This document shows, in pieces, positions 5,008-17,354 of a DNA stretch of 64,000 bases. The translations under genes and the position numbers were made by a program. The first letter of the stretch is position 1. Every line of letters begins with the position of its first letter. The notes under the pieces are model-generated. The model saw only the letters and a list, made by a program, of their open reading frames with translations. It was not told the origin of the DNA and made no database searches. The stretch comes from Aequorivita antarctica. Its GTDB lineage: Bacteria; Bacteroidota; Bacteroidia; Flavobacteriales; Flavobacteriaceae. Location of the stretch: positions 310,001 to 374,000 of the forward strand of contig NZ_VORT01000003.1 of the NCBI RefSeq assembly GCF_007997155.1, read 5' to 3'.

Positions 5008-5044
5008 TACTTTATTAAAACCTACTTTGAACACTTTCTGAATT

Positions 5045-7294
5045 TTGAATTATTTACGCTACTTTATACTCTTAATTTCCTTTATAGGATTTGCGCAAAA
5101 TAGCCAAGATACTATTTCGACTCAAGACAAGAAAGAATTTGCTATGCTTAAGGATTCCTTAAAGGCACGGCAAGATCGGACGGATTATATGTTTTTTGAA
5201 GGAAAGTATGACTCCGTAATCTTATCTTCCATAGACAATATAAAGCTAGCCGAAAAGCTTGGCAATAAAGACGCCGCCTTTTATTCTAGGTATATGATAG
5301 GGGCTTCTTTTATATACCTCAAGGATTTTAAGAATGCCCATGTTTATGGAGAAGATTATCTAAATTTTGCAGAGAAATCAAAAGACGACTTTAAGATTGC
5401 CCGTGCCTATAATTTTATGGGAGCACTATACCTCACCGAAAAAAAATACGATTCTGCTCTTCCTTTGTTTAAAAAAGCGCTCCCGCTTTCTTTAAAAAGA
5501 AAGGATACCCTAGAAGCTTCCATGGTGTATTATAACCTCTCTGAATCTTATCTAAACCAAGGCGACAATAAAAATGCCCAGCTTTATTTTCAGAAAGCAA
5601 AACAGGGAATAGATGCTATGGGGTCTAAGGCATTAGTAACCGAAATGAATCTGCTACAGGGTAAGTTGAACCTATCTCTAAACAATCCCAAAGAAGCCAT
5701 TGTAAATTTTAAAGATGCAATTGCTTTTGCTCAAGAAAAAAATTACATAGATGACTATCTAACTGAGGCTCATAAAGAATATAGCAACGCTCTATATGAT
5801 ATTGGCGACTATAAAGAAGCATTTGTAGTTCGAAAAAAATTCGATAGCCTTATCGAAATTCAGTTCGAAAATGAAAAATTGATGGCAATTCAGAACGCAG
5901 CTGCCCAGTTTAGCGTGAATGAATATAAAAAACAAGCCCTTCAAGCAGAACTGGAAAAAAAATTGATTTCAGAAAAGGTTTTATTGAGCAATATCCTTCT
6001 TTATTTTTTTATTGGAACAGCAATCGTGATGGGACTATTTTTGATAATTCTATATATATCACACAAAGGAAGAAAAGAACTAACCCTTACCTTAAAAGAA
6101 AAAAACCAACAGTATTTAAAAGCAAAACAGAAATCGGAAAAACTGGCTTTAGCCAAAAGCAAGTTCTTTTCAACAGTTAGCCACGAATTGCGAACCCCTC
6201 TATATGGTGTTATTGGTTTAAGCTCTGTACTTCTGGAAGACGAATCGCTCAAAAATCATCAAGCAGATTTAAAGAATCTAAAGTTCTCTGCAGATTACCT
6301 TTTGGCACTTATAAACGACGTGCTTCAAATAAGCAAACTCGAGTCTAATACGCTTGAAGAAATGAAATCACCCTTTGATTTAAGAGATTTGGTTCAGTCT
6401 ATCGTTACTTCTTTTCAATATTCTTTGGTGCAGAATAAAAACAAGCTTCACGTAGAGATTTCAGAAAATATTCCACACACCATTGTTGGCGACCGTGTAC
6501 GTCTTTCACAAATTCTCATGAATTTAGTGGGTAATGCCATAAAATTTACCAATAACGGTGATATCTATATTAAGGTTCAAGAAGAATCAATTTCAGAAAA
6601 TGAAGTAACCATACATTTCAGCATTAAAGATAACGGTATTGGCATTCCAAAGGAAAAACAAAAGGCCATTTTCGAAGAATTTCAACAAGTAGATTCCGAT
6701 GATTTTAAAATACAAGGAACTGGTCTTGGGCTCACCATTGTAAAGAAATTGCTCGAAGCTTCAGGCTCTTCCATCAAGCTTAAAAGTGAGCAAGGCGAAG
6801 GATCTACATTTAGTTTTACTTTAAGCTTTCAAATTTTGAAACACTTACTTCAAGACAAAATAATAGACGATAACAGTATTTTAAACGGTAAAAAGATACT
6901 CGTGGTAGACGACAACAGAATCAACCAAATTGTCACAAAGAGAATACTTGAAAACCACGGAATAATTTGTAGTATCGCGGAAAGTGGAGATATTGCCATT
7001 GAACAGTTACGGATAAACGATTTTGACCTTGTATTGATGGACATTAATATGCCGGGCAAAGATGGAATTGAAACTACAAAAGAAATTAGAAAATTTAATA
7101 AAATAGTTCCAATTTTGGCTTTAACGGCGATTGAAGTTGAAGAGATGAAAAACAAAATTGAAGCTTCAGGAATGAACGACATTATTGTTAAGCCCTATGA
7201 TACCGATAAGTTTCTTAAAGTAATTCTTAACAATCTAAATGATACTGACGAAGATATATTTTACCAACACAAAAGTTCTTCCTTAGAAAAATAA
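5045..7294 (+). CDS. TPR-containing hybrid sensor histidine kinase with receiver domain
   Basis: 749 residues from a TTG start, the only start that keeps the signal peptide (YFILLISFIGFAQ). Order of parts: periplasmic TPR repeats (about 60-270); coiled coil; one transmembrane helix (about 317-340); HisKA with SHELRTP and phospho-acceptor His380; HATPase with NLVGNAIKFTNNGDI (N box), DNGIGIPKE and GTGLGLTIVKK; and a C-terminal receiver (about 615-735) with DDN and phospho-acceptor Asp666 in LVLMDINMPGKDG. It is a single-gene phosphorelay with no DNA-binding output and no histidine phosphotransfer domain. The downstream partner must therefore be encoded elsewhere. It is convergent with sdhB. 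Confidence 0.93.
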   Translation: MNYLRYFILLISFIGFAQNSQDTISTQDKKEFAMLKDSLKARQDRTDYMFFEGKYDSVILSSIDNIKLAEKLGNKDAAFYSRYMIGASFIYLKDFKNAHVYGEDYLNFAEKSKDDFKIARAYNFMGALYLTEKKYDSALPLFKKALPLSLKRKDTLEASMVYYNLSESYLNQGDNKNAQLYFQKAKQGIDAMGSKALVTEMNLLQGKLNLSLNNPKEAIVNFKDAIAFAQEKNYIDDYLTEAHKEYSNALYDIGDYKEAFVVRKKFDSLIEIQFENEKLMAIQNAAAQFSVNEYKKQALQAELEKKLISEKVLLSNILLYFFIGTAIVMGLFLIILYISHKGRKELTLTLKEKNQQYLKAKQKSEKLALAKSKFFSTVSHELRTPLYGVIGLSSVLLEDESLKNHQADLKNLKFSADYLLALINDVLQISKLESNTLEEMKSPFDLRDLVQSIVTSFQYSLVQNKNKLHVEISENIPHTIVGDRVRLSQILMNLVGNAIKFTNNGDIYIKVQEESISENEVTIHFSIKDNGIGIPKEKQKAIFEEFQQVDSDDFKIQGTGLGLTIVKKLLEASGSSIKLKSEQGEGSTFSFTLSFQILKHLLQDKIIDDNSILNGKKILVVDDNRINQIVTKRILENHGIICSIAESGDIAIEQLRINDFDLVLMDINMPGKDGIETTKEIRKFNKIVPILALTAIEVEEMKNKIEASGMNDIIVKPYDTDKFLKVILNNLNDTDEDIFYQHKSSSLEK

Positions 7295-7324
7295 AAAATC
7301 CCAAGTAAAGAATACTTAGGATTT
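7295..7324. terminator. Bidirectional terminator between the kinase gene and sdhB
   Basis: Inverted repeat AAAATCCCAAGTA / TACTTAGGATTTT with one G-T pair, A-rich on one side and T-rich on the other. It sits between convergent genes. Confidence 0.65.
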
Positions 7325-13851: not shown

Positions 13852-13885
13852 ATGGGAATAAACACTATATAGTGTTTATTCCCAT
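13852..13885. repeat. Perfect 34-bp palindrome
   Basis: The left arm ATGGGAATAAACACTAT is followed at once by its exact reverse complement. It lies between an isolated TATATTTG (13830-13837) and the Trypco2-like gene at 13915. There is no T-run, so it is not a classic terminator. Confidence 0.95.
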
Positions 13886-13914
13886 GTTACCTGTAAGCTG
13901 AAAACACAAATACT

Positions 13915-14298
13915 ATGGATTTAAAAGATTTTATAAAAAATACGATTTCTTCAATTAGTGAGGCTATTGTTGAAAGTCAAAATGAACTGAAAGACAAAGG
14001 AGTTATAGTAAATCCAGAAAAAACTGAAATTGGAAAAACTGGTGAAAAACTGTTGAGAAGTGATGGATGGAGATATGTTCAGAACTTGGATTTCGACATT
14101 TTAGTTGGAGTTGATGACAAGCAAGGAACTGGTGGAAAAGGAGAACTAAAAGTAGCTGGACTTTTTAGCATCGGTGCAGGAATAAATGATGAAAACACTA
14201 CTGTTAACCACAACCGAATTAAATTTACAGTTCCGGTAGCTTTTAGCACCGTTGAAACACCGACAGAATACAAACCGAAAGGACCATCAATACTATAA
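13915..14298 (+). CDS. Trypco2-like small protein (trypsin-co-occurring domain 2)
   Basis: 127 residues. It has an N-terminal amphipathic helix (DLKDFIKNTISSISEAIVES), a short polar middle, and C-terminal beta strands with a glycine-rich segment (GGKGELKVAGLFSIGAG) ending in NRIKFTVPVAFS. This layout recalls the Trypco2 domain, found beside trypsin-like and NACHT proteins in putative bacterial conflict systems. I recognise it only by pattern. No protease or NTPase gene is next to it. It starts the accessory island: a 34-bp palindrome lies upstream, and GTTACCTGT (13886-13894) and its reverse complement (14305-14313) flank the gene. Confidence 0.5.
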   Translation: MDLKDFIKNTISSISEAIVESQNELKDKGVIVNPEKTEIGKTGEKLLRSDGWRYVQNLDFDILVGVDDKQGTGGKGELKVAGLFSIGAGINDENTTVNHNRIKFTVPVAFSTVETPTEYKPKGPSIL

Positions 14299-14304
14299 AA
14301 GCCA

Positions 14305-14445
14305 ACAGGTAACAATGTATAACCGCAATTACGGCGGATTCGACTGCGTCCGAATCCACTCGGAATTGCTAACGCCAGTACTTAACCGAAAAACCTCGTA
14401 AATTTACCCGTAACTGACGGTTATACTGGACCGTTGTAGCTAATC
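14305..14445. repeat. Structured inverted-repeat element A (cassette-junction-like)
   Basis: Outer arms GTATAACCG (14317-14325) and CGGTTATAC (14418-14426) are perfect 9-bp complements, extended by ACAA near the left end and TTGT near 14433-14436. An inner hairpin GGATTCG / CGAATCC lies near 14336-14358. The general layout recalls attC-type recombination sites, but the 7-bp core boxes do not match the standard consensus. Element B near 16785-16912 has the same architecture. Confidence 0.55.
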
Positions 14446-14448
14446 AAT

Positions 14449-15027
14449 ATGAAGAAAATTGAAAAATATAAAGAAGTCTCTTCCCTTTGGATTGAATATA
14501 AAAGTGGATTAAAATATTATATTTTAAAAAAGCTTAAAAATGAAGATCTAGCTGATGAATTATCTCATGAGGTATTAATGAAAATTTACAATTCCTGTTG
14601 CTCGGGGAATGAAATAAAAAATATTAAATCATGGATATATCAAATTGCCCATAATACTGTGATTGATTATTTAAAATCAGAAAATAAATTCACAAATGAA
14701 GTCACTGAAAAATTCGAATCAGATGAAAATAATACTTATGAAGAGGCTGAAAAATTCTTGGAGCCTCTTATAAAATTATTACCTGATAAATATGCTCTCC
14801 CTCTTTTATTGTCAGATATTGAAGGAGTAAGCCAAATTGAAGTTTCCAAAAAAATGAATTTGAGTTTAACGGCCACTAAAAGCAGAATTCAACGTGCAAG
14901 AAAATTATTGAAAGAGAAAATTATTGAATGTAGCAATTTGGAAATAAATGCCAAAGGAAGGCCTATTTCTATTGAAATTAAAGCAGATTGTAAACCGTTG
15001 AAAAAAAACCCAAAAAATAATAATTAA
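14449..15027 (+). CDS. SigZ-like ECF RNA polymerase sigma factor
   Basis: 192 residues. Region 2 is about 10-85 (LADELSHEVLMKIYNSC; IKSWIYQIAHNTVIDYLKSE). Region 4 is about 105-158, with a helix-turn-helix (GVSQIEVSKKMNLSLTATKS). Beyond region 4 a ~35-residue tail carries Cys161 and Cys181; Cys50-Cys51 lie in region 2. The tail (IIECSNLEINAKGRPISIEI) resembles that of SigZ proteins, which I recall as cysteine-containing there. No anti-sigma gene follows. Instead the stop codon runs into the first of two identical 46-bp repeats that precede the next two transcription units. This suggests a self-contained regulon. Codon use is more A-rich than in neighbouring core genes. Confidence 0.85.
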   Translation: MKKIEKYKEVSSLWIEYKSGLKYYILKKLKNEDLADELSHEVLMKIYNSCCSGNEIKNIKSWIYQIAHNTVIDYLKSENKFTNEVTEKFESDENNTYEEAEKFLEPLIKLLPDKYALPLLLSDIEGVSQIEVSKKMNLSLTATKSRIQRARKLLKEKIIECSNLEINAKGRPISIEIKADCKPLKKNPKNNN

Positions 15028-15071
15028 TAAATTTTGCGTCTTTTTGTATCTTAATTAGTCTTGGTTATGAT
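15026..15071 (+). repeat. 46-bp direct repeat, copy 1 (candidate SigZ-type promoter)
   Basis: Identical to 15304-15349 over 46 bases. It begins inside the sigma-factor stop codon and ends 23 bp before the ATG of the 43-codon ORF. It contains GCGTCTTTTTGTATCTTAAT and, further on, TAGTCTTGG. Confidence 0.95.
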
Positions 15072-15094
15072 TATTAATTTAAAAAACACACAAA

Positions 15095-15226
15095 ATGGAA
15101 ACAATAAAATATTCAAGAAGAACAACATGGAATAATAATAGAAACTATAGATCGAATTCAGCAACACGATCATTATGTATAATATCATCTAAAGGCATTT
15201 TTGGCTCGAATCGCAGATATTGTTGA
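15095..15226 (+). CDS. 43-residue peptide ORF in the sigma-factor module
   Basis: ATG at 15095, TGA at 15224-15226. The peptide is rich in Arg, Asn and Ser (N-terminus METIKYSRRTTWNNNRNYRS) and ends SNRRYC, with Cys28 and terminal Cys43. An A-rich stretch precedes the ATG, as is usual for Bacteroidota starts. It lies between 46-bp repeat copy 1 and a hairpin terminator, so it is the only ORF on a predicted ~200-nt transcript. No homologue is known to me. It could be a precursor or metal-binding peptide, or the transcript could be a small regulatory RNA. There is no signal peptide. Confidence 0.4.
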   Translation: METIKYSRRTTWNNNRNYRSNSATRSLCIISSKGIFGSNRRYC

Positions 15227-15254
15227 GACCTTTAATTTCATTAAATAATAATTT

Positions 15255-15285
15255 AAAAAGCTTCCTAATATAGGAGGCTTTTTTA
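15255..15285 (+). terminator. Terminator of the short transcript
   Basis: Stem AAAAGCTTCCT / AGGAGGCTTTT with a 5-nt loop and one G-T pair, followed by T's. It separates the 43-codon ORF from repeat copy 2. Confidence 0.75.
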
Positions 15286-15303
15286 GTTAAAAAATATTTA
15301 ATC

Positions 15304-15349
15304 AATAAATTTTGCGTCTTTTTGTATCTTAATTAGTCTTGGTTATGAT
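15304..15349 (+). repeat. 46-bp direct repeat, copy 2 (candidate SigZ-type promoter)
   Basis: An exact copy of 15026-15071. It ends 23 bp before the flavoprotein ATG at 15373, the same distance that copy 1 has to its ORF. That equal spacing is what a shared promoter would give. Confidence 0.95.
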
Positions 15350-15372
15350 ATTAAATCTAAAACTAAGAAATA

Positions 15373-16692
15373 ATGAATAATCACGATTTACCAGTAGCAA
15401 TAATTGGCGGAGGTCCAGTAGGTTTGTCCGCAGCCGCACATCTTAAAAAAAGCAATCAGCCATTTATTCTTTTTGAAACAGGAAGTCAAATTGGCGCTAA
15501 TATTTTAAAATGGGGACACGTAAGGTTGTTTTCACCTTGGGAATATAATATTGACAAGATAGCAGAAACCTTATTACGAGAAGCACAATTGCCAATTCCA
15601 AACAAAGCAGATGTTCCTTATGGAAAGGAAATTATTGAAGATTATTTAAAGCCACTTGCAAATTTACCAGGCATTAAAGAACATATTAATTTGAATTCGA
15701 AGGTAATCGCCATTGGAAGAAGCGGTTTAGATAAAATGAAAGATGCCAAGAGAGAAGAACTTCCTTTTTCTATTCAAGTTATTGAAAATGGAAAATTTAA
15801 GCTGTATGAAGCTAAAGCAGTAATTGATGCTTCAGGTACTTGGCAAAGTCCAAATCCTGTAGGATCTGGTGGAATATTTGCACTTGGTGAGGTGGATAAT
15901 AGAGCCCAAATATATTATGGTATGCCCGATATCAATGAAGCAGATGAGGATAAATATGCTAATAAAACTACTTTAGTCGTGGGCGGAGGGCATTCGGCTA
16001 TTGGAACTATTTTAGCATTAAATGATCTCATTCATAAATACCCAAAAACAAAAATTCATTGGGTATTGCGAAAAAAGCAAGTTAGTGATGTGTATGGCGG
16101 TCAAGAGGCTGATAAGTTTAAGGCAAGAGGTGCTTTAGGTATTCAAATTGAAAAATTGGTGAATTCAGGAGCTATTGAGATTCATACGCCTGTGTATATT
16201 CATGAAATTGAAAAAAATAAGGACCAATTAGTAATTAAAGGCTTAAAACACAAAGACAACTTTGTTTTGGAGGGTATAGATGAAATAATTAGCAATACAG
16301 GCTCTCGTCCCGATTTTAATTTCTTAAGAGAAATTCGCTTTGACTCAGATTCAGCTCTTGAAAGCGTTCCTAAGCTGGCTAATTTAATTGATCCAAATAT
16401 TCATAGCTGTGGTACTGTACGACCACATGGGGAGGCAGAATTAAGGCAAAAGGAAAAAGGTTTTTATATCGTTGGGATGAAAAGCTATGGACGTGCTCCT
16501 ACCTTTTTAATGACTACAGGTTATGAGCAAATAAGGTCAATAGTCGCTTTCATGAACGGTAATTTTGAAAGTGCAAAACGAGTAGAATTAAATTTACCAG
16601 AAACTGGTGTTTGTAGCTCAGGAATCAATACGGCAATTAAAGAAGCTGAGGTCAAAGTAAAAAGCAGCTGTGCTGCGAGTTGTGGTGTATAA
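15373..16692 (+). CDS. FAD/NAD(P)-binding flavoprotein with Cys-rich C-terminus
   Basis: 439 residues. The N-terminal FAD Rossmann motif is VAIIGGGPVGLSAAAHL (about 8-25), and the second nucleotide-binding motif is LVVGGGHSAIG (about 202-212). Both are as in flavin-containing monooxygenase/thioredoxin-reductase-like enzymes. IISNTGSRPDFNFL is the usual ATG-like motif before the C-terminal domain. The end carries LNLPETGVCSSG (Cys414) and a tail with Cys433 and Cys437 (SSCAASCGV). I recall related flavoproteins with such Cys-rich tails in arsenic and metal loci, but that is memory, not shown here. No ars gene is in the window. It is probably transcribed from 46-bp repeat copy 2. Confidence 0.8.
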   Translation: MNNHDLPVAIIGGGPVGLSAAAHLKKSNQPFILFETGSQIGANILKWGHVRLFSPWEYNIDKIAETLLREAQLPIPNKADVPYGKEIIEDYLKPLANLPGIKEHINLNSKVIAIGRSGLDKMKDAKREELPFSIQVIENGKFKLYEAKAVIDASGTWQSPNPVGSGGIFALGEVDNRAQIYYGMPDINEADEDKYANKTTLVVGGGHSAIGTILALNDLIHKYPKTKIHWVLRKKQVSDVYGGQEADKFKARGALGIQIEKLVNSGAIEIHTPVYIHEIEKNKDQLVIKGLKHKDNFVLEGIDEIISNTGSRPDFNFLREIRFDSDSALESVPKLANLIDPNIHSCGTVRPHGEAELRQKEKGFYIVGMKSYGRAPTFLMTTGYEQIRSIVAFMNGNFESAKRVELNLPETGVCSSGINTAIKEAEVKVKSSCAASCGV

Positions 16693-16784
16693 ATTAATAG
16701 TTATCCTACTATTCTATTTAGTTATCAGCAATTTACTGAATAAAAGACATCAAACGGAGAGGAAGTATTAATGAAGAACTAGCT

Positions 16785-16912
16785 ACAACAATGTATTAAA
16801 GCAATAGCGGTTTGGGTGTTTACCTGAACCGTTTTTGTGCTTAATTCAGTATCTTGTTCTCTGAAAAGTAAGTGCGATTAAATCCGCTACTGCTCTTATA
16901 CTAAACGTTCGT
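16785..16912. repeat. Structured inverted-repeat element B (cassette-junction-like)
   Basis: Arms AGCAATAGCGG (16800-16810) and CCGCTACTGCT (16884-16894) are complementary at 10 of 11 positions. They are extended outward by GTATT / TATAC and AACA / CGTT. An inner hairpin CGGTT / AACCG lies near 16808-16831. The left end (ACAATGTAT) is shared with element A. It lies downstream of the flavoprotein gene, so A and B bracket the sigma-peptide-flavoprotein module. Confidence 0.5.
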
Positions 16913-16964: not shown

Positions 16965-17354
16965 ATGATAACAACCCTAGCAAAATGGACGGTAATAATA
17001 TTTGGAATATTTATAATTTTTGTGGGTTTTCTAATGCTTTTTGCACCAGAAAGAGCAAGGGCAACCTTACGTAAAGCCGGAAGTACAAATTTTATAAACT
17101 ATACTGAAATTACAATACGATTAATCCCAGCGGTAGCATTGATTCTGTATTCAGATTTTTCCAAGTTCCCTTTAGCGTTTACAATTTTTGGTTGGTTTAT
17201 GGGTATAACCTCTTTGATACTTTATCTTGTTCCGAGAAAAACACATCATGCATTTTCAATGAAAAGCGCCGATATGCTTAAACCCAAGTATGTTCAACTA
17301 ATTTCCCCATTTGCTTTTTTATTTGGCGGATTAATTATTTTTAACGCCATATAA
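16965..17354 (+). CDS. Small four-helix membrane protein, unknown
   Basis: 129 residues with four hydrophobic segments (about 7-26, 50-63, 68-88 and 108-128). The loop after helix 1 is APERARATLRKAGSTNFINY. Not recognised as a named family. It lies just outside inverted-repeat element B, with no clear promoter, and may belong to the accessory island. Its short polar tail and lack of a signal peptide suggest an inner-membrane protein. Confidence 0.6.
   Translation: MITTLAKWTVIIFGIFIIFVGFLMLFAPERARATLRKAGSTNFINYTEITIRLIPAVALILYSDFSKFPLAFTIFGWFMGITSLILYLVPRKTHHAFSMKSADMLKPKYVQLISPFAFLFGGLIIFNAI

Follow-up and report, generated by a model that had tools for sequence, protein, structure and literature searches.

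A SigZ-like sigma factor with predicted promoters of its own in a predicted mobile gene cassette of Aequorivita antarctica, most likely for arsenic-type stress

Introduction

Many extracytoplasmic function (ECF) sigma factors work with an anti-sigma factor (PMC3107203). CorE of Myxococcus xanthus, a copper-responsive, metal-dependent ECF sigma factor with a C-terminal Cys-rich domain, works without one; its tail has six cysteines, of which four are invariant among 21 listed sigma factors from four other phyla (PMC3107203). SigZ is named ECF238 (PMC9239204). Cassette-borne promoters are known for integron gene cassettes (PMC8876359, PMC8618304), and a whole integron is recognized by an IntI integrase with an IntI-specific additional domain (PMC9668308). 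In the passages available to us from the open-licence PubMed Central literature, we found no promoter, target or signal for SigZ, no link between SigZ and arsenic, and no sigma factor carried with its promoters in a gene cassette. Here we describe a module in a stretch of 64,000 nucleotides from Aequorivita antarctica (contig NZ_VORT01000003.1, positions 310,001 to 374,000, forward strand; this whole stretch is called the window), in which the genes for a SigZ-like ECF sigma factor, a short peptide and a flavoprotein lie between two attC-like sites. It appears to combine known kinds anew: a mobile gene cassette encloses the regulatory unit of an ECF sigma factor, whose role most likely lies in arsenic-type stress.

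Results

The module and its SigZ-like sigma factor

We observed that the module order given in an original prediction, made from the sequence of the window, was correct: sigma factor, 46-bp repeat, 43-codon open reading frame (ORF) with its terminator, the repeat again, and flavoprotein, all on the forward strand (Table 1). The sigma factor scored 33.0 bits with PF04542 (cut-off 24) and 38.5 bits with PF08281 (cut-off 25.7), and it has regions 2 and 4 only, both recognizable, as ECF (group IV) sigma factors do. The best-scoring curated models, which cover most of the tail, were the SigZ models TIGR02959 (139.1 bits, cut-off 168.65) and NF007215 (150.4 bits, cut-off 212). As both scores are below the cut-offs, we call the protein SigZ-like only. 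The prediction had also found no anti-sigma factor gene in the module, and we agree: none was seen by eye among the neighbors, and the two flanking ORFs (the 127-aa ORF upstream and 16965-17354) gave no match in Pfam and came near none of the NCBIfam cut-offs.

The 46-bp repeats as predicted sigma-dependent promoters

The two copies of the repeat were identical at 46 of 46 positions. When the whole genome (3.84 Mb, 66 contigs) was searched with a 64-nt repeat query, two full copies alone were found (E 3e-27 and 2.4e-19; the next match had E 0.21), and on this ground a dispersed genomic repeat was rejected. The pattern GCGTCTTTTTN{10,14}AGTCTT had exactly two matches in the genome, both of them the repeats, and none in a reversed control. 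The repeats are two copies of a two-block motif, CGTC-N16-[C/A]GTC. ECF promoters usually have a CGTC-like -10 box.

We further evaluated this motif in related loci (numbers with L and G are our labels for loci and genomes). Seven sigma factors were searched against 397 genomes of the family (Flavobacteriaceae), with at most eight candidates scored per genome, and 118 matches were listed at E 1e-30 or better. Ranks 1 and 2 were the window and the L014 genome; ranks 3 to 62 were analyzed together with the window, L012, L013, L014 and L015, minus L110 (the same contig as L013, not counted twice), giving 64 loci. These split by tail type into 36 loci (the motif group) and 28 with CKVC-type tails. 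We counted the pattern C[GA]TCTTTT-N11..14-[CA]GT[CG] between -40 and +110 of the sigma factor stop codon, and it was present in 30 of the 36 motif-group loci and in 0 of the 28 other SigZ-like loci; since the pattern was derived from the loci on which it was counted, several of them copies of one cassette, the fair test is this contrast between the groups. Elsewhere in the same loci there were 35 matches in 895,010 bases (both strands), i.e. 0.006 per 150-bp region. Among the 35, eleven had the sense orientation in the 36 motif-group loci, and several of these preceded flavoprotein, ArsM, PhzF or sigma factor genes. The two boxes were 16 nt apart in 27 of the 30 loci and 15 nt apart in the other 3. 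In L012, L013 and L014 too, the flavoprotein gene is preceded by an element matching the repeat. In L128, L130, L141 and L149 the motif was also seen just upstream of the sigma factor gene itself. On the contrast between the two groups we predict that the 46-bp repeats are sigma-dependent promoters, which supports in part the earlier proposal that the sigma factor drives both units.

A predicted mobile gene cassette bounded by attC-like sites

Two sites flank the module, both with the structure R''-AACAATGTATAA...TTATAC-N-AACGTT-R'. Elsewhere in this genome, runs of such attC-like units lie on the small contigs C17, C18, C21 and C23 and at the end of contig C6. A covariance model, R1, was built from nine attC-like sites, none of them in the window. 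In the nine-site alignment 97.2% of the stem cells were paired, and 10 of 16 pairs had compensatory changes on both sides. Among 500 shuffles, none was as high on the percentage paired or on the covariation score and one was as high on pairs changed on both sides; 105 reached the observed value for further pair types. In the window, R1 found two strong sites, which bound the module, and its third-best match had E 0.81. The sigma cassette has the conserved stem with covarying pairs at the 3' end that is expected of attC.

We also evaluated whether each cassette could have been a circle, in which case its start must complement its own R'' at its end. An own-end match of at least 7 nt was observed in 13 of 18 cassettes vs 14 of 306 non-own pairs, where the 18 are partly non-independent (the window and L013 share one cassette, and some site types repeat). 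The two cassettes in the window matched over 10 and 9 nt. Among the five failing cassettes, the stretches of L056 (site inside, E 0.014) and L013 each proved to contain a skipped site, the end taken in L060 was not confirmed, both ends of the Arenibacter copy carry point changes, and one in L012 halts at 6 nt.

Copies of the cassette were found elsewhere. Arenibacter echinorum has the sigma-flavoprotein cassette with 98.8% identity in both aligned pieces and other genes outside, and Flavobacteriaceae S0862 has it with 92% and 85% identity (two pieces) and other neighbors. In both, the homology extends from 14429 or 14432 as far as 16909 and halts at the recombination points; the homology of L012 to the window covers 14429-15084 and 15289-16909, and nothing beyond. 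The cassette is circularly consistent (start vs own R'') and recurs with identical boundaries in L012 and L013. Pontimicrobium aquaticum likewise has the sigma-flavoprotein part (82% and 90% identity), and the covariance model found no attC-like site at this locus. As for the same genus, the genes that flank the module are about 6.9 kb apart in G254, with unrelated genes between them and no clean empty site, and in G027 the downstream flank alone matched within the stretch taken.

Conservation of gene order in relatives, which the original prediction had named as its test, was observed: the sigma-flavoprotein order is kept in four other genomes (L012, L013, L014 and L015). Confinement of the module to its own genome was rejected, as sigma factor and flavoprotein are common to these four. 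On the site structure and the copies, the module is a mobile gene cassette bounded by attC-like sites, a feature absent from the prediction. Like integron cassettes, the unit is attC-bounded, circularly consistent and found at different places; it differs from integron cassettes with their own promoters in that it adds a sigma factor for those promoters.

Effectors behind the sigma factor

Within the first 1.3 kb behind the sigma factor gene, the 36 motif-group loci encode a flavoprotein (5), the arsenite methyltransferase ArsM (6), an ArsI/CadI-type protein (3), PhzF (15), a thioredoxin-like protein with a SaoE-like permease (2), a DUF2703 protein (1) or a peptide alone (1); three loci (L114, L121 and L149) fit no effector class. 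ArsM was above the NF008823 cut-off in all four loci tested (L111, L112, L130 and L141). The ArsI/CadI protein of L123 (one of three loci tested) scored 108.7 bits, below the cut-off of 116, and the SaoE of L142 (one of two loci tested) scored 136.3 bits, below the cut-off of 325. For the SO_0444 Cu/Zn family, this permease scored 95.9 bits, which is again below cut-off. The DUF2703 protein scored 23.5 bits against a cut-off of 23.6.

In a tree of the sigma factors, the window-type clade (97/93) holds sigma factors with a flavoprotein, with ArsM and a peptide, and with a peptide alone, as well as one ArsI sigma factor (long branch, place unsure). The L015 sigma factor, which also precedes a flavoprotein, groups with the ArsM sigma factors (100/98). 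With 14 of 39 inner branches unresolved, the tree suggests that effectors have been exchanged between sigma factors. Judged from these sequence comparisons, the module is a member of a family of sigma-effector modules.

Several further observations were made in this family. The PhzF clade (L115-L120, L122, L124-L127, L131, L133-L135) has one tail Cys in its sigma factors (none in L131), the same kind of promoter, and then the PhzF-family gene. The Arenibacter array that holds the sigma-flavoprotein cassette also holds a SigZ-PhzF pair (L012 30-560 and 623-1504). In L116 and L131 an attC-like site was seen directly 5' of the sigma factor gene of SigZ-PhzF modules, and in L141 one was seen after the ArsM gene of the sigma module. 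Directly behind the SigZ-like sigma factor and motif of L149 there is a gene for a 45-aa peptide with 11 Cys (2119-2256), metallothionein-like by eye and without a Pfam match.

The flavoprotein and the link to arsenic genes

The C-terminal cysteines of the flavoprotein noted earlier are indeed present (Table 1). In 13 aligned sequences Cys346 was invariant, and Cys414 and Cys433 were nearly so. Class I disulfide reductases such as MerA have a CxxxxC in the FAD domain. The flavoprotein lacks this motif, and its first Cys is Cys346.

Relatives with 47-58% identity were found in five genomes of a phylum sample (395 genomes) and in one of a family sample (299 genomes). Those in L011 and L077 follow an ArsR-family gene (Pfam), and some relatives precede an MFS-type gene (by eye). 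On plasmids, 126 records matched the flavoprotein at E 1e-30 or better. From the twelve matches listed we read four contexts, all on Bacillota plasmids: three have an ArsR-family gene next to the flavoprotein gene and the fourth has one at a distance of about 5 kb. In two of the four an MFS gene follows (with ArsN1 in one of these), and arsBCDA-type genes were near in two. In being a flavoprotein family found near ars genes, the family resembles ArsO and ArsV of ars operons (ArsV is likened by genomic location, from citations). Both the promoter motif and the flavoprotein family are thus linked to arsenic genes.

A conserved peptide gene

Homologues of the 43-codon ORF were found in four other genomes (G125, G238, G025 and G780). 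The five peptides share an internal Cys, an FG and an RR[Y/F]C end (the RRxC family), and pS was 0.54 vs a pN of 0.28 (pooled over pairs, last 24 codons). A chance or assembly artefact was rejected by these homologues, and on this conservation the ORF is a conserved peptide gene, more than chance. The family had no Pfam or NCBIfam match. When 15250-15290 was folded, the terminator hairpin of the peptide unit had -16.4 kcal/mol and z -4.6, and 0 of 200 shuffles equaled it; a simple terminator scan did not list this hairpin behind the ORF.

Among the window, L012, L013 and L014, the extra peptide unit of about 278 bp was present in the window alone, and the order in the other three is sigma factor, one copy of the element, flavoprotein. 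In G125 the order is sigma factor (70% identical to that of the window), element, 46-aa homologue, hairpin, element, arsenite methyltransferase, and its two elements have diverged, unlike the identical pair in the window. G238 has sigma factor, peptide and ArsM. G025 and G780 have sigma factor and peptide, in G025 after the motif without a second copy, and no arsenic gene was seen directly behind the peptide in the ORF listings of these two. Altogether, the peptide was present in 5 of the 10 window-type sigma loci inspected (the window, L012, L013, L014, L111, L112, L113, L114, L121 and L176). Across 22 genomes of the G025 genus it was found in two, G025 and G780, and three further weak matches were not accepted. 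A DNA search of the 397 genomes with the ORF unit gave matches at E 0.01 in 251 (own included); those listed besides the window and G125 are short, and G125 alone was accepted as real.

The original prediction had proposed, as a check, to see whether the short ORF and the flavoprotein recur together. They do not: the ORF was present in 0 of the 4 other sigma-flavoprotein loci, so that its belonging to the flavoprotein as a rule was rejected, and it recurs with ArsM or alone. The peptide family is linked in part to arsenic methylation genes.

The tail of the sigma factor

Alignment and structure model both placed Cys161 and Cys181 beyond region 4, as had been predicted. All 18 loci that encode a metalloid-type effector or an RRxC peptide had at least two tail Cys vs 0 of 15 PhzF loci, which are not 15 independent events since the PhzF sigma factors form one clade (with an altered tail in L131). 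A low-confidence model predicts a beta hairpin (162-166 / 172-177), with C161 and C181 at its open end.

The sigma factor is like CorE in its short Cys-bearing tail after region 4, in having no linked anti-sigma factor that could be seen (by eye, with the flanking ORFs scanned), and in its metal(loid)-handling targets. It differs from CorE in that it travels in a cassette with its own promoters and in that the linked effectors vary between loci. Having two tail Cys, it lacks the four invariant ones and is not a member of the CorE type, though it may work alike.

A recombinase linked to the arrays

No match over the TIGR02249 cut-off for the IntI integrase was found anywhere in the genome, and the array-linked recombinase lacks the IntI-specific additional domain of a whole integron. 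In L063 (G000:C6:49000-56437), a gene for a 376-aa tyrosine recombinase (5041-6171) stands directly before cassettes with attC-like sites at 6634-6760 and 7137-7315. An attC-like site (E 0.01 or better) was found in 14 of the 30 loci of the array-linked recombinase and its homologues (own included), compared with 1 of 29 other SigZ loci, a set that differs in locus and search sizes. The array type of the window differs from integrons in its linked recombinase, which the profile used does not identify as IntI. This recombinase may be an integron integrase of Bacteroidota that is overlooked when searches are based on IntI.

Other features of the window

A perfect 34-nt palindrome (13852-13885, by eye) adjoins the start of the upstream cassette and could be a terminator or part of an insertion site. 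A relative of the 127-aa ORF in that cassette, with 36% identity, lies close to the L015 sigma-flavoprotein pair on the opposite strand (L015 1590-1973, -).

Table 1. Features of the sigma gene cassette and the adjoining cassette, in window positions
Feature	Position	Strand	Evidence
SigZ-like ECF sigma factor, 192 aa	14449-15027	+	Pfam Sigma70_r2 and r4_2 above cut-off; alignment
46-bp repeat copy A, predicted sigma-dependent promoter of the peptide gene	15026-15071	+	boxes CGTC 15037-15040, AGTC 15057-15060
Peptide gene, RRxC family, 43 aa, 2 Cys	15095-15226	+	homologues in G125, G238, G025, G780
Intrinsic terminator of the peptide unit	15255-15283	+	fold of 15250-15290
46-bp repeat copy B, predicted sigma-dependent promoter of the flavoprotein gene	15304-15349	+	boxes CGTC 15315-15318, AGTC 15335-15338
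Pyr_redox_3 flavoprotein, 439 aa, Cys346, Cys414, Cys433, Cys437	15373-16692	+	Pfam; locus contexts; alignment
Upstream gene cassette with 127-aa ORF 13915-14298, adjoining member of a short run of cassettes	13886-14432	+	start vs own R'' match over 9 nt
attC-like site, end of upstream cassette / start of sigma cassette	14308-14435	+	covariance model, 85.9 bits, E 3.8e-16
Sigma gene cassette, about 2.47 kb, between two GTT recombination points	14433-16906	+	R'/R'' 10-nt match; homology limits in L012
attC-like site closing the sigma cassette	16784-16909	+	covariance model, 95.3 bits, E 4e-18

Discussion

We consider it probable that the cassette, part of an integron-like array of Flavobacteriaceae, is a complete regulatory unit, made up of an ECF sigma factor for arsenical or thiophilic stress, its own promoters, a two-Cys peptide and an arsenic-associated flavoprotein. 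In such a unit the sigma factor gene would be transcribed at a low level from outside the cassette, and this origin is probable because 13 bp separate the attC site from the start codon. Arsenite, methylarsenite or a similar thiophilic agent would bind or modify Cys161 and Cys181 of the tail, and the activated sigma factor would then turn on both cassette promoters. The flavoprotein would oxidize or otherwise detoxify the arsenical, and the peptide would bind the agent or tune the response. The sigma factor thus probably senses arsenical or other thiophilic stress through its Cys tail, as CorE does copper; the signal, the sensing and the role of the peptide are what we infer from sequence.

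Several observations weigh against this picture. The 28 other SigZ-like sigma factors carry 4 or 5 Cys in their CKVC-type tails and yet lack this promoter; therefore tail Cys alone do not predict this system, and the Cys tail by itself is, by its distribution, a wider SigZ-type feature. The idea of direct sensing through the tail, which came from the original prediction, is strengthened by the split of 18 of 18 vs 0 of 15, though the single PhzF clade and these 28 sigma factors count against it. The window sigma factor has 2 tail Cys vs six in CorE (four of them invariant; PMC3107203). Its structure model had a mean pLDDT of 57.8 (76-90 in blocks of region 4, about 60-65 in the tail), and that of the flavoprotein had a pLDDT of 37.3. 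As for the promoter, its pattern came from the loci on which it was counted, and 6 of the 36 loci (L015, L112 and L142, with visible variants, and L121, L143 and L162) lack it as defined. PhzF, encoded in 15 motif-group loci, is not an arsenic gene, and therefore the pairing of sigma factor and promoter is not arsenic-specific. The flavoprotein is far below the ArsO model NF040505 (44.4 bits, cut-off 425), in which it differs from ArsO, and its best curated model is the YpdA bacillithiol disulfide reductase TIGR04018 (46 bits, cut-off 339.9). In ten more distant flavoprotein loci (46-58% identity) that we inspected, no sigma factor gene was seen beside the flavoprotein. The hairpin of the G125 peptide unit was weak, with a z of -1.8 and 12 of 200 shuffles that equaled it, and the array-linked recombinase aligns to the IntI profile at 3-181 and 239-315 only, without positions 182-238.

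It is somewhat unlikely, though a serious alternative, that the cassette and its promoters are as described and that the sigma factor is no sensor, its activity being set by an unlinked anti-sigma factor or by transcriptional control of its gene. The pairing of many ECF sigma factors with an anti-sigma factor would fit this (PMC3107203), as would the motif upstream of the sigma factor gene in four relatives, which suggests autoregulation, and the PhzF-type sigma factors, which keep the promoter with no more than one tail Cys. However, no anti-sigma-like gene was seen by eye beside the sigma factor, whether in the window or among the ORFs listed for related loci, and a cassette present in two genera would need to find its anti-sigma factor in each host. 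The signal, in turn, could be copper, cadmium, zinc, antimony or an electrophilic or oxidative thiol stress, with the flavoprotein as a general thiol-linked reductase or oxidase, and this we hold to be unlikely. CorE responds to copper (PMC3107203), the SaoE-like permease matches the Cu/Zn family below its cut-off, the name of the ArsI/CadI family refers to heavy metal resistance, and YpdA, far below its cut-off, is the best curated flavoprotein model; yet ArsM is encoded in 6 of the 18 metalloid-type loci, and flavoprotein relatives are found near ArsR-family or ars genes.

Two further alternatives concern the peptide unit. A recent duplication or recombination could have inserted this unit and left the 46-bp repeat behind as a by-product, with copy B alone in use. 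This would explain why the window copies are identical over 46 bp whereas the G125 pair has diverged, and why L012, L013 and L014 have a single copy and no peptide. We think it quite unlikely, since the order sigma factor, promoter, peptide, promoter, effector is also found in G125, whose sigma factor is 70% identical, and the peptide of G025 follows the motif without a second copy. It is more improbable still that the ORF is a leader or a small RNA with its own promoter and terminator in place of a working peptide: the unit of promoter, ORF and terminator is indeed compact (about 280 bp), but conservation is at the protein level in five genomes (internal Cys, FG, RR[YF]C end), with pS well above pN.

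Beyond the cassette as a complete regulatory unit, we put forward tentatively, and with more doubt than confidence, a whole class of self-regulating mobile cassettes. Its sigma factor would sense arsenicals directly with a minimal two-Cys hairpin tail and would read promoters that are apparently the only ones for it in the host; its detoxification effectors (flavoprotein, ArsM, ArsI) would be interchangeable, the RR[Y/F]C peptides, a new family, would serve as an arsenical-binding or feedback part, and a non-IntI recombinase of Bacteroidota would move the arrays. Promoterless cassettes are tied to the array promoter and to the place they occupy, and a sigma factor and promoters of its own would let a cassette bypass this; its induced expression would therefore not depend on array position. 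Such a self-contained sigma cassette would be a genetic part able to work in each new host. For the SigZ-like sigma factors, these studies provide a testable promoter motif and a testable signal class, and they suggest that in Bacteroidota a sigma factor senses metalloids directly.

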